Source: Oryzias latipes (taxonomy: Eukaryota > Chordata > Actinopteri > Beloniformes > Adrianichthyidae). From it: 64,000 nucleotides of DNA. Of this stretch, positions 32,573-58,246 are shown one piece after another (the first letter of the stretch is position 1; each line of letters starts with the position of its first letter). The notes beneath the pieces were generated by a model. That model saw only the letters and a program-made list of their open reading frames with translations, had not been told where the DNA came from and searched no databases. The position numbers and the translations under genes were made by a program. The stretch covers positions 1,570,485 through 1,634,484 of the forward strand of contig NC_019870.2 in NCBI RefSeq assembly GCF_002234675.1, given 5' to 3'.

Positions 32573-33475
32573 CAACCCGGTCTCATCCTAAAATGTGTAG
32601 TAGCTACATTTGTCCACATGGAAATGCGTGAGAGTTTTACAAAAACGCCCCCTAAACTGTGAGGGGGATACGTTTCATTTTTCTATTCATTTTCTACGAG
32701 CCTTCTCAGGATCACGTGACTTTGGAGGTTTGGCCTGCCGTGAGCAAAAAACATGGCGGATGCACGTTCATTTTTCGGTGGAATATCCCATAAAACAAGA
32801 TATTTTGAGGACTAATTTTTATTTTGACAACATTTCTAGTGAGAAATATACCATTTTCTTTTAAAATATGCTTTCATTTTGGACATACAGTTTGTAGTTT
32901 GCTTGTTTCGTTCAACTTTTTCTCCCAAAGGCTCTGTTACGTTGGAGAAACACGTTAACTTTCATTCATATCTGCAGACGTGCGCGTGGGTCACGTGACT
33001 AATATGATTCTCTTTTTTTCCGCAGAAAATGCCATAAAATAAGAGTGATTGTGGACTAATTTATTTTTGAAAACATTTCTAGCAGTATATATCCCCTTTA
33101 TTTTCGTAATATTGCAGACATGAAGTTGTTTGTTTGTTACGTTCAACTTTTCCTCAAGGGATCTGAAAGCGTCTGATCTTTTCCATTCATATATGCGGGC
33201 TGACGTGGGTCACGTGACGTGCCTTTCTCTTTTTTTCCTGTGGAAAATCTCGTAAAAAGGTACGTTGCGATTTACTAATTTGTTTTATTTACATTTCTAG
33301 GGACCCGTGTATAGGTTTTCTCTTTCCGTGTTGCTGTTGCGGCGATCAGGCTATGATTGACATGTGACAACAAACCGGAAAAATGTTGAGTTCAGGGACT
33401 GACCAAAGAGTTCTTTAAATTGATTTTTCTGCATTTTAATTTATTTACACTACGAGTCTAATGGTGTGTGATAAA
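32573..33475 (+). repeat. Left long terminal inverted repeat of the giant element
   Basis: The outer 540 bp or so match the right arm almost base for base, including an 84-codon chance frame present identically in both. Similarity then falls to roughly 85 percent and ends near 33475 (CACTACGAGTCTAA matched by CACTACAAGTCTAA). The arm consists of three degenerate units of about 220-280 bp. Each has a TCACGTGA palindrome (32712, 32991, 33210), a pyrimidine tract, and an ACATTTCTAG block. Confidence 0.8.
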
Positions 33476-33769
33476 AAAAACTATAAATATTATGATAAAT
33501 GAGATGAAACAATTATTTTGATGCATTTTATAAAATATTAGGATCTATTATATTCTTTTTTCTTTAACTGTCAATTTTTTGACGTATCTCATATATTATA
33601 GTATTACAATGAAGTGCTCTAATTTATCTGTTAAAAAACGTTTCATCACTGTTTCCTGTAGTAATTCTCAATAATGTTTTAAATAGGATATATTAAATAG
33701 GATATATTATCTAAAGTAAACAGGCTTTTAAGCCTTCAATTTGCCCCAATTGACATGAAGTGCGCATTT

Positions 33770-34098
33770 CGAAAAGCCAATGAACGCAGCGTCATACGGG
33801 CACCCCCACCCCACTCCCCCGGAAACCCCCGGATGAACCCGCAGGAAGGCGCGCGGCTGAAGAACTCTTGGACAGCTGGAAGGTGGGCGATGATTTGAAC
33901 CTTTCTCTGTAGAAATGTAATGTTTAGATTTGGGAAACCAGAGATGGGTTTTTAGTAAAAACGTGTTGGCTGTTTAGGATTAACGTTGAATGACGAGGCG
34001 TTTTTCCATCTTAAATTTAAAAGGCCGCAGGATCACGGTGAAGGCCTCTTCTGTATAGAGGACGGGGGCGGAAACGTCACGTGGTCTCCGCAGAGGTA
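33770..34098 (+). promoter_or_regulatory. CpG-rich segment with strong splice donors, possible internal promoter
   Basis: GC-rich DNA here stands out from AT-rich neighbours. Two donor-like sites occur, CTGGAAG/GTGGGC near 33880 and CCGCAGAG/GTAAGT at 34096-34102. It could be the 5' end of the spliced gene whose later exons begin at 43879, with the BEL element sitting in its intron. That connection is an inference. Confidence 0.3.
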
Positions 34099-34319
34099 AG
34101 TTTCCTTTTGGGTCATTTAGCCAGAAACGGGGGTCTGCAGCCCTTTAAACAGCTAAGAGCATTTAAATGTCTCACTGTCCAGAACTCAGTAGGACACACA
34201 AGGTTTCTCTTCAGCCTTTAGAAAATCAAACACTCATTTGCATTTATGTTATTTTGGAAACTGGATAACTACTGGGGTTTACAAAGGCTTTTTTTTTACA
34301 CATTGTAGATTTTATGTTG

Positions 34320-34800
34320 TTAGTACATCTCAGCCAGTATTTCTTTAAGGGCCTATATCATGCAACATCAACGTTTTAAAATTTTAAAGTGTATTATAAT
34401 GTTAATTCCTCACAAAAACTAATCCACAGCGGTATTTTGATCCATTCACGCATCTCTCAGCATTCCTCTGAAACCCTCTGAGCACCAGCCCCTCCCAAAT
34501 CACAATAAGAGGGTCCTCACATTGTGACGTCATCATAAGTGAGGAGCAGCCTCTTCTAGGAAGAGCCTGTGCAGCTAACAGACACGCCCACTTTCTCAAT
34601 GGAGCTAGTGGTGATCAGCAAAATGCTTTCATTGCACAATATTCACATCCATCTTTGCAAAAGTTTCGATGGAAGAAACGCAGAAACGCTGCCGACGCCG
34701 ACTCTAGGTTGATGTCATGAAATAGGCGACACCCACAAGAAGAGAAAGGCGGAGCCTCAGAGATCGAGGAAATAGTTTATTCTAAATGGCTAGCATGGGA
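34320..34800 (+). repeat. Probable interspersed repeat
   Basis: The string of motifs GGGCCTATATCATGCAACAT, CCCTCTGAGCACCAGCCCC, TTGTGACGTCATCATAAG and AACAGACACGCCCACTTTCT is of a kind that recurs across fish genomes (recognised from memory only). No terminal structure is seen. Confidence 0.35.
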
Positions 34801-55685: not shown

Positions 55686-55819
55686 TTAAGAATTATCAAA
55701 AGCACAGCAACCGCAGAAGATGTGCAGGAATGAACAATATTGTCCTCACCAGACAATTCAATGAGCATTCTTCACCAAGAACATGAACTGACAGAACACT
55801 AACTCTCACTGACTGGCAC

Positions 55820-56668
55820 TTATTGAGGGTCCACTCTTCGACTGTCGATCAGCGCGTCCCCCTCCTTCAGGAACGCCCTCTGACCCCTCTTCCTCGCCTC
55901 TTGGACCAGCGGCCACAGCTTGGCTCTCGCCTCCCTGTCCTCCTTAGAGAAATCTTCTTTGAAGTGGACGTGCATTTCCTTGCAGACTCTCGCCTCTCTT
56001 GACCGTTTCCACACGTCATCCCGGACCACTCTGGACACAAACTGCAGGATTATCGACCGCGGAGGATTGTGGGAAGTCGCCGCGCTCCCCTTTCTTCTCA
56101 ACCGATGGACCGTGTCAACTGCCTCTCGCAGGCGGTCCGCGCCGATGGGAACCACCCTGGTCAAGATGCCGATGACGGTTTCTCTGATGTCTTCTCCATC
56201 CTTCTCAGCCAAACCATTCAGCCGCAGATTCCACCTCCGTTTGTAGCGAGCATGCTCAGCCACCGCTTCCCTTAGCCGCTTGTTGTCTCCTTGAAGTTCA
56301 GCCACTCTTTTCTCCAGATGTTCTAGAACTCCTTTATTCCTTTTTATAGCTTCTGAGTTGGCATCAATTCTTTCATCAAACTTTTTCAGTAGGGCTGTCT
56401 GCTCATCCATTATGGTCGTTTGCATGTCGACCTTCTCCGTCAGGGCGGCCACGGCTTCCATAATTCTTTCGAACATACTTTCATCCTGCAAGTTCTGCCC
56501 GCACCCTTTCTTTTGCTTTTTAGGATGAGGTGCTTTGACTGGAGTGTGTGCAAGGTTCACTAACTTTTCTTTGGACCTTTCTCCATCCCCTGTAGTGACT
56601 TCAACAGCTTCCTCAGTCATCTCGTGAATATCGGACTGGGAATAATAGTCGTGCTCGTCCATTTGCAT
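55820..56668 (-). CDS. L1-type ORF1 RNA-binding protein
   Basis: ORF1 proteins coat the LINE RNA and act as chaperones during target-primed integration. The frame gives about 282 aa from the ATG at 56668 (MQMDEHDYYSQ); codons upstream in the same frame lack a better ATG. The N-terminus is acidic. Residues about 65-150 form a heptad-rich coiled coil (SMFERIMEAVAALTEKVD). An RRM-like domain (RWNLRLNGLAEKDGED) and a basic C-terminal domain (MHVHFKEDFSKEDREARAKL) follow, as in Transposase_22 family proteins. The frame is intact, unlike ORF2. It ends about 135 bases before the ORF2 start in transcript order. Confidence 0.85.
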   Translation of the reverse strand: MQMDEHDYYSQSDIHEMTEEAVEVTTGDGERSKEKLVNLAHTPVKAPHPKKQKKGCGQNLQDESMFERIMEAVAALTEKVDMQTTIMDEQTALLKKFDERIDANSEAIKRNKGVLEHLEKRVAELQGDNKRLREAVAEHARYKRRWNLRLNGLAEKDGEDIRETVIGILTRVVPIGADRLREAVDTVHRLRRKGSAATSHNPPRSIILQFVSRVVRDDVWKRSREARVCKEMHVHFKEDFSKEDREARAKLWPLVQEARKRGQRAFLKEGDALIDSRRVDPQ

Positions 56669-56900
56669 TTCGGTTAGCTTACTTTCGATTTTCAAAAGGA
56701 AGAAAAAAACAAGTTTACGGTAGTCCGCGATTCCTCTCACAAACTTTAAATAGAAACTTAGAAAAAATTTCAGTGTTCTTGGTTATAGAATGCAAAAAAA
56801 ACTCACAAACAAGGACAGAAAAAAAAACTCTTACACCGGAGCCCGCAAAGTACGTTCGTTCATTCCGCCATCTTGCCTCCTCCACGCGACAAGGTACCTT

Positions 56901-57334
56901 CGCTCTGAAAAACATTTGATGTTTTGTTTCTTTAAGTACCTGCAAAACAGAAAGTTTGCATTAGTAATGGAAACATTAATTTCTATAAAAAATAAAAATA
57001 AACACCTGTTTGTCGCTGGGCTTATTTTTAAAACTTAATCTTCCCGATAAACGTGGGACTGGGAGTAATCACAAAACCAGTTTAGAGCCAAACGTCTTTT
57101 TTTTTTAATTATTTACAGTGTATTTCTTAACTCAACTAGTTGATGTTGAAAAAATACGCTTGCATGGACGTTACGACAGAGTACATCGGTCCCTAGAAAT
57201 GTTATTAAACGTAAATATTAAACCTCAGACGATCTTATTTTACGAGATTTTTTTTCCACGGGAAAAAAAAGAAACTCGCGTCACATGACCCCACGTCAGC
57301 CCACAGATATGATGGGAAAGATCAGACATTGTAC
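56901..57334. other. Right interior of the giant element with an extra inverted-repeat unit
   Basis: Unpaired relative to the left arm, bases about 57175-57330 carry one further degenerate unit (CATTTCTAGGG, TCATGTGACGCG and pyrimidine tract on the minus strand). The right arm therefore has four units where the left has three. The rest is AT-rich. Confidence 0.55.
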
Positions 57335-58246
57335 ACAGCATTTAGACTTGTAGTGTGAATACTTTAACATGTAAAAGAATATTGAATAAAACAAATCGCT
57401 AAGTAAATTTAGAGAACTCTCCAGTCCGTTCCTGAACAACATTCTTCCGGTTTGTTTAAATGTCCTTCAAAGTCGCAACTACACAGCATGAAACCTATAC
57501 ACGGGTCCGTAAATGTAAATAAAAATAATTAATAAATAGCAACGTACCTTTTTACGAGATCTTCTATATGAAAAAAGAGAAACTCAGGTCACGTGACCCA
57601 CCTCAGGCTGCATATATTTATGGAAAAGATCAAACGCCTTCAGATCCTTTGAGGAAAAGTTGAACGTAAAAAACAAACTACGAACTGCATGTCTGCAATG
57701 AATGGATATTATGAAAATAAAGGGGATATATACTGCTAGAAATGTTTTCAAAAATAAATTAGTCCACAATCACTCTTATTTTATGGCATTTTCTGCGGGA
57801 AAAAAAGAGAATCATATTAGTCACGTGACCCACGCGCACGTCTGCAGATATGAATGAAAGTTAACGTGTTTCTCCAACGTAACAGAGCCTTTGGGAGAAA
57901 AAGTTGAACGAAACAAGCAAACTACAAACTGTATGTCCAAAATGAAAGCATATTTTAAAAGAAAATGGTATATTTCTCACTAGAAATGTTGTCAAAATAA
58001 AAATTAGTCCTCAAAATATCTTGTTTTATGGGATATTCCACCGAAAAATGAACGTGCATCCGCCATGTTTTTTGCTCACGGCAGGCCAAACCTCCAAAGT
58101 CGCGTGATCCTGAGAAGGCTCGTAGAAAATGAATAGAAAAATGAAACGTATCCCCCTCACAGTTTAGGGGGCGTTTTTGTAAAACTCTCACGCATTTCCA
58201 TGTGGACAAATGTAGCTACTACACATTTTAGGATGAGACCGGGTTG
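57335..58246 (-). repeat. Right long terminal inverted repeat of the giant element
   Basis: The inverted partner of 32573-33475. Core palindromes are TCACGTGA at 57589 and 57821, and TCGCGTGA at 58100, where the left arm has TCACGTGA. The outer 540 bp or so are nearly identical to the left arm; the inner part differs by substitutions and small indels. Confidence 0.8.

Follow-up and report, generated by a model that had tools for sequence, protein, structure and literature searches.

The transposon whose anatomy comes closest to that of the element described here is Galileo of Drosophila, a member of the P superfamily. The accounts consulted describe arms of up to ~1.2 kb with internal direct repeats and several THAP-binding sites, 7-bp target duplications and, for two copies, arms that are more alike within a copy than between copies (PMC2775673, PMC3688188). 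Medaka itself harbors Izanagi, a P-superfamily element that is called medaka specific in its report and given there as 1.3 kb long, with a 27-bp repeat starting CAATGAG and 8-bp duplications (PMC2820524); duplications of 8 bp are likewise described for Drosophila P and for Pdre2. Here, we analyzed a stretch of 64,000 nucleotides from Oryzias latipes (contig NC_019870.2, positions 1,570,485 to 1,634,484; G000:C12:1570485-1634484), hereafter called the window, and found that its positions 32573 to 58246 hold a single unit with mirror-image ends, inverted arms of ~0.9 kb and a 7-bp duplication, GAGTGTT. With a probability of about 0.85, we assign this unit to a family of DNA transposons that are 12.8 kb long, carry long inverted arms and make 7-bp duplications. 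No transposase domain was found in the family, and a transposase acting in trans likely moves its members by cut and paste.

The unit starts with CAACCCGG at 32573 and ends with CCGGGTTG at 58246, and GAGTGTT adjoins both termini on the outside (Table 1). The first-pass annotation, made from the letters of the window, had reported exact mirror-image outer ends, GAGTGTT just outside both and inverted arms of ~900 bp, and re-reading bore this out: complementarity of the arms is 100% across 449 nt (32573-33021 with 57798-58246), followed by pieces at 88 to 98%. Twelve copies in the genome were read at both ends, and the duplication is an exact 7-bp pair in 10 of them, a 6/7 match in the C14 copy and 8 bp in the C17 copy. 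The exact pairs are GAGTGTT (window), AATGTGA (C8), GGCTAGC (C3), AGGGAGC (C9), TTGTAAT (C21), TATGAAC (C12, 19.98 Mb), ATTTATT (C7), TCATAAC (C16), TCCACCA (C24), and TGGTATA (C5), and no motif common to the duplicated targets of the 12 copies was apparent by eye. This count omits copies read at one end, such as C16:5632621, C22:28716228, C1:28245667, and C1:32587998. The element thus displays the terminal inverted repeats of class II (cut-and-paste type) transposons together with their fixed-length duplication of differing targets at many unlinked sites.

Copies were sought in the same genome (734,051,031 bases in 25 contigs) by scoring the best 40 of 198 candidates for the left arm, 51 and 253 for two interior probes and 80 for a border probe, and the copy numbers given here are lower bounds. 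Among those scored, the 903-nt left-arm query yielded 49 match rows, made up of 33 left-arm copies, 7 right arms, and 9 short pieces. Because the left arm recurs in this manner, the inverted-arm arrangement of the window is not a product of chance. At least 33 left-arm loci are present, 32 of the 33 at ≥95% identity, while the 7 right arms sit inverted with their outer ends 10 to 26 kb from that of a left arm. When 28 of the left-arm loci were read inward, all 28 ran into the same interior, and at the remaining five, rows of a probe spanning 33300-34300 cross the border between arm and interior. Of the 42 rows listed for this border probe, 37 extend past 33476, in agreement with the earlier statement that the left arm has no opposite terminus near 33475; the other five are second pieces of loci already found, on the assumption that a pair on C17 (47804 and 71921, 24 kb apart) is one element. 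Five border loci beyond the 33 match at 95 to 98% (C13:33411830, C8:5557314, C22:19085775, C22:14308520, and C17:71921) and one, C2:4889246, at 80%. A 1-kb interior probe gave 32 rows, of 40 scored, at ≥96% identity along 963 or more of the 1001 positions.

Fetched copies mapped to the window revealed that 32573-35890, 43581-51737, and 56883-58246 form one continuous sequence elsewhere. Two uninterrupted copies measure 12,855 and 12,857 bp (C8 and C3) and are 98.1% identical with gaps counted; these two and the window unit differ from one another by 1.35 to 1.46% of aligned bases. With one duplication outside both arms, such copies confirm the earlier proposal of one mobile unit of ~12.8 kb, and a divergence of ~1.4% among three copies makes a recent amplification burst likely. 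The phylogeny of 14 left ends over 1150 columns has a star-like shape, with end branches of median 0.0035 and low support for 7 of 11 inner branches; the exception is the C12 (19.98 Mb) copy, whose branch is long and which carries a deletion within the stretch used. Other copies have been altered in various ways: the C7 copy, with its own ATTTATT pair, has lost most of its interior and is 3.3 kb long, and the interior is interrupted on C20 (1.94 Mb) and C1 (32.59 Mb). The arm at C20:1941692, which appears to stop at position 795, is merely interrupted by a long terminal repeat (LTR) retrotransposon, Gypsy-type by eye. At 33 loci of 12.8 kb, the family amounts to up to ~0.4 Mb of the genome, some copies being deleted or enlarged.

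The window copy reaches 25.7 kb because a BEL/Pao LTR retrotransposon and a putatively L1-type long interspersed nuclear element (LINE) inserted later, which doubled its length. The LTRs of the BEL/Pao element are 478 bp each and 100% identical, and the two pieces of its frame that were searched match Peptidase_A17 (Pao; 2.6e-36), RVT_1, DUF5641, and the integrase zinc domain in Pfam. The LINE matches Exo_endo_phos (1.4e-14) and RVT_1 (2.1e-27), and its first frame has no Pfam match. Each insertion has a target duplication of its own. The BEL/Pao element is absent at its site in 10 copies (C8, C3, C9, C21, C12 [19.98 Mb], C16, C17, C24, C5, and C1 [28.2 Mb]), and the LINE is absent in eight (C8, C3, C9, C21, C12 [19.98 Mb], C7, C17, and C16); its target sequence is exact and single in C7 and C17, the only two of nine loci to match it exactly. 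Since other copies lack both insertions at those sites, the 12.8-kb unit arrived before them, as the first-pass annotation had proposed, and a 25.7-kb unit moving as a whole is ruled out. Its suggestion of a giant DNA transposon therefore stands in part: the unit is a DNA transposon, but it is giant only through nested insertions, and no coding capacity that would make it autonomous was found.

Other copies carry other insertions. The C14 copy has a different 5.4-kb insertion near the site of the window's LINE (about 1893-7288 of the fetched stretch), whose termini (TATGGAGTTATTTCAGTC...) are exact mirror images and whose frames are all shorter than 150 amino acids (aa); it is likely a further DNA transposon, large and non-coding, that sits within a member of the 12.8-kb family. 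The C16 and C24 copies each hold an insertion of ~1.1 kb near unit position 2254 (3298-4378 and 3308-4442 of the fetched stretches); if both are the same sequence, the two copies would derive from a source in which it was present beforehand.

The arms consist of modules that recur at steps of ~220 to 310 nt, each with the TCACGTGA motif or a variant. In eight elements compared in bins of 75 columns, the two arms of one element are 94.6 to 100% alike over the outer 525 columns and 72 to 95% alike over the next 225, beyond which the similarity fades; taken over the next 300 columns, the range is 62 to 95%. Over those next 300 columns, left arms resemble left arms at 95 to 99% on average and right arms resemble right arms at 87 to 97%. 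As these inner columns differ between the arms yet match within the left or the right set, we conclude from the alignments that the repeats forming the arms originally extended farther and that a later process likely made the outer part alike. Within elements, the arms differ at 57 places versus a mean of 72.4 when the right arms were reshuffled among the eight elements, and 18 of 5000 shuffles gave a value as low. Ten minority variants, of which C14 accounts for five, occur in the two arms of the same element versus 57 in one arm only, a pattern of sharing that fits some conversion between arms.

Coding capacity was tested on the uninterrupted C8 copy, in which the longest stop-to-stop frame is 126 aa. 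No match over the Pfam cut-off was obtained with the six whole frames of its interior, and 20 of its 33 frames of ≥70 aa produced matches below the cut-off only. The C8 copy with flanks of ~1 kb contains no Rfam family and no tRNA, and its differences from the C3 copy show no codon phase by eye. A copy at C1:32587998 (90% identical), considered as an autonomous relative, was rejected: over ~14.7 kb read inward, its longest frame is 127 aa and none is transposase-like by eye. Likewise, frames of ≥40 aa from two loci with P-type transposases, described below, gave no transposase match to the unit and matched only a dispersed repeat and one arm module. The unit carries no recognized transposase of its own and is non-autonomous as far as tested. 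Thus, we reasoned that it was likely moved by an enzyme made elsewhere.

A DDE-type transposase encoded at another locus would bind the repeated arm motifs, to which such a role is assigned by analogy with the THAP-binding sites in Galileo arms, and would pair the two ends. It would then excise the unit and insert it at a staggered 7-bp cut, while sister-template repair would restore donor copies. Repair, together with conversion between arms, could keep the outer 520 nt alike. After landing, the unit in the window was hit by the BEL/Pao element and the LINE.

Insertion as a single unit, presence in many copies, a separate duplication at every site read at both ends and some sharing of arm variants can be read directly from the genome. 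Several points weigh against the remainder of this account or narrow it. Supply in trans is inferred, as no element with these ends was found to encode a transposase, and a transposase too diverged for Pfam or split into very short exons could have been missed in the six frames of the one copy, C8. The strict 7-bp rule is challenged by the imperfect C14 duplication (ACCATTA/GCCATTA) and by C17, which is flanked on both sides by GTTTTTTT, either an 8-bp duplication or 7 bp plus a slip in a T run. The sharing of arm variants could reflect subfamily descent instead of conversion. The middle of the C7 copy may have been deleted either before insertion or afterward; since the loss may have come second, this copy is suggestive but no proof that the ends suffice. 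Solo right arms could exist, the evidence on solo arms covering left arms, and all observations come from one genome assembly with one allele per site.

The remaining explanations differ in what they make of the interior. It is scarcely credible that two separate miniature inverted-repeat transposable elements merely flank ordinary host DNA with no single mobile unit: an interior that is non-coding and holds an old dispersed repeat is what host DNA would look like, but at many unlinked places these same arms enclose this same interior, and a single duplication flanks the whole. Independent 1-kb arms, the observation that the first-pass annotation had named as fatal to its own proposal, were not encountered among left arms, none of the 33 standing alone, and the two-element explanation is rejected on that ground. 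A pair of transposon ends could instead have captured host DNA long ago and carried it since as cargo, in the manner of a composite or pack-type element, and we regard this as a possibility to be taken seriously, if not the expected outcome. It would account for an interior with an embedded dispersed repeat and no coding trace, and the source could be among interior matches at 77 to 87% identity. Among those scored, such matches comprise C22:28748202, C17:16139289, and C8:21088711 for the first interior probe and C22:28749801, C8:21393520, and C13:28060819 for the second, C22:28749801 (82%) being 1.6 kb from C22:28748202 on the same strand. These diverged matches, however, lie at several places, as older copies of the element would, and suggest an older history. 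Moreover, the match at C2:4889246 spans the border between arm and interior at 80%, so the two seem to have been joined before the recent burst. That same joint in an 80% copy, and the similar length of the two uninterrupted copies, would also be expected if the interior were what decay has left of a large element that was formerly autonomous. We consider such an origin improbable, given that the six frames of the C8 copy hold no Pfam trace of transposase, polymerase, or capsid, that no frame exceeds 126 aa and that no codon phase is seen by eye between two copies.

Somewhat less improbable than decay, though still doubtful, is that the family is a Galileo-like member of the P superfamily served by a P-type transposase. 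The unit shares with Galileo, as far as the latter is described in those accounts, 7-bp duplications (the superfamily is marked by 7 bp in Galileo or by 8 bp), long and internally repetitive arms, copies devoid of transposase and arms more alike within copies. It differs in its fish host, its length of ~12.8 kb and the lack of a P-type transposase linked to it; its own ends read CAACCCRG. In particular, no P-type (THAP/RNase H) transposase was found in an element with the same ends: the core domain PF21787 matches only two loci in the genome and PF12017 matches three, the third of which, on C2, was negative in a check for a CAACCC end within 3.15 kb around it. Of the two PF21787 loci, the one on C21 has Izanagi-type repeats at both ends and the one on C9 at the one end seen, neither being CAACCCRG. 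Because the P-type core loci carry Izanagi-type ends, we did not file the 12.8-kb family under P. Identity with Izanagi itself is ruled out by different ends and duplication length, although both are non-autonomous medaka DNA transposons and one Izanagi copy is also described as having taken a later nested insertion (PMC2820524).

The two P-type loci are of interest in their own right, Izanagi being the transposon behind the rewiring of the medaka sex gene dmrt1bY. The C21 locus (~28.464-28.470 Mb) is a 5.4-kb element (2442-7828 of the fetched stretch) that is bounded on either side by the Izanagi-type 27-nt inverted repeat and, beyond it, by the 8-bp sequence GTTTGACA. It contains P-type transposase frames, one with a stop, and is likely an autonomous-type relative of Izanagi. 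The second locus, on C9 (~30.645-30.650 Mb), is 80 to 93% alike to that on C21 over matched pieces and has the Izanagi-type end on one side. About 300 nt beyond the end of this P element lies an 88-nt match (84%) to an arm module of the unit; it is not at an element end and proves no link.

Other known systems were also compared. Elements of the hAT superfamily make 8-bp duplications, which excludes them here, where 7 bp is exact in 10 of 12 copies and 8 bp occurs only in C17. Mutator-like elements and Foldback elements resemble the unit in their long inverted arms and many non-autonomous copies but make duplications of 8 to 10 bp. Polinton/Maverick elements are defined by polymerase, integrase, and capsid genes, and no Pfam match over the cut-off was obtained in the C8 interior frames. 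Elements of the piggyBac type target TTAA, a sequence seen in none of the 12 duplications. Teratorn, described as a 180-kb, coding fusion of piggyBac and a herpesvirus in medaka (PMC5601938), is similar in being a very large medaka transposon but differs in its size, coding content and piggyBac type; with no TTAA and no Pfam match over the cut-off, hence no herpesvirus-like genes by that measure, it was excluded. The earlier view that the unit is neither a Polinton nor Teratorn is therefore upheld. Dada elements of fish share a duplication length of 6 to 7 bp with the unit, but they are reported to insert in small RNA genes and to encode a transposase, with introns in nearly all, and the U6 and U1 families are described as without terminal inverted repeats (PMC3706591, PMC8869645). 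The long inverted arms of the unit exclude Dada, and the C8 copy, the one tested, lies in no tRNA or Rfam gene.

Table 1. Coordinates of the unit and its nested insertions in the window
Feature	Positions	Strand	Remarks
Target-site duplication GAGTGTT, left copy	32566..32572	+	other copies have different duplications
Left arm (terminal inverted repeat), starts CAACCCGG	32573..33475	+	internally repetitive; TCACGTGA motif at ~32712, 32991, 33210
Interior, first part	33476..35890	+	no coding sequence recognized; also present in other copies
BEL/Pao duplication TACAT (5 bp), left copy	35886..35890	+	
Nested BEL/Pao LTR retrotransposon	35891..43584	+	LTRs 35891-36368, 43107-43584; open frame 36902-42961
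BEL/Pao duplication TACAT, right copy	43585..43589	+	
Interior, second part	43590..51735	+	non-coding as far as tested; older dispersed repeat 44987-45178
LINE target-site duplication CACGCGACAAGGTACC (16-18 bp), left copy	51720..51735	+	
Nested L1-type LINE, 58-T tail	51736..56882	-	endonuclease and reverse-transcriptase frames; L1-type is the putative clade
LINE target-site duplication, right copy	56883..56900	+	
Interior, last part	56901..57149	+	
Right arm (terminal inverted repeat), ends CCGGGTTG	57150..58246	-	TCACGTGA motif at ~57821, 57589; variants 58100, 57281
Target-site duplication GAGTGTT, right copy	58247..58253	+	
Family end sequence CAACCCRG, written as CAACCCRGTCTCATCC			both ends of unit

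The dispersed repeat of ~200 nt within the unit recurs in the flanks of the window (59392-59583 and 61443-61634), beside several other copies and beside both P-element loci. Elsewhere in the window, a long array with an 11/22-nt period occupies 19182-19823 and beyond, in which a 279-nt reference recurs as 44 register copies. The host frames that neighbor the unit (4376-5497, 17912-18598, and 28884-30440) include occludin-like ones, judged by eye, and a minus-strand frame for an ankyrin-repeat protein (Pfam Ank).

Among the papers listed by searches of the open-access literature aimed at this element, none was seen to describe it; the repeat catalogues Repbase and Dfam lie outside those searches, and an entry in a catalogue only is possible. 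The family consists of non-autonomous DNA transposons with long arms, of unusual length and likely amplified recently. Non-autonomous elements amplified to high copy number are usually short, whereas this unit multiplied at 12.8 kb with no recognized gene. It is a long shot, but conceivable, that it represents a lineage of very large non-coding transposons with repeated arms of 0.9 kb, which went through at least two bursts (copies ~80% and ~98.6% alike) and depends on an undescribed, possibly new, 7-bp transposase group, outside those superfamilies for which a 7-bp signature is defined in fish, that moves 12.8 kb in trans. The family offers a natural test of how repeated motifs in long arms may make up for the cost that length imposes on cut-and-paste transposition, and of how the two arms remain similar. 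Should its transposase be identified, it could serve as a tool for large cargo. For the medaka genome, the inverted sequences that the family has spread could drive rearrangements, as Galileo is reported to do in Drosophila (PMC2775673).

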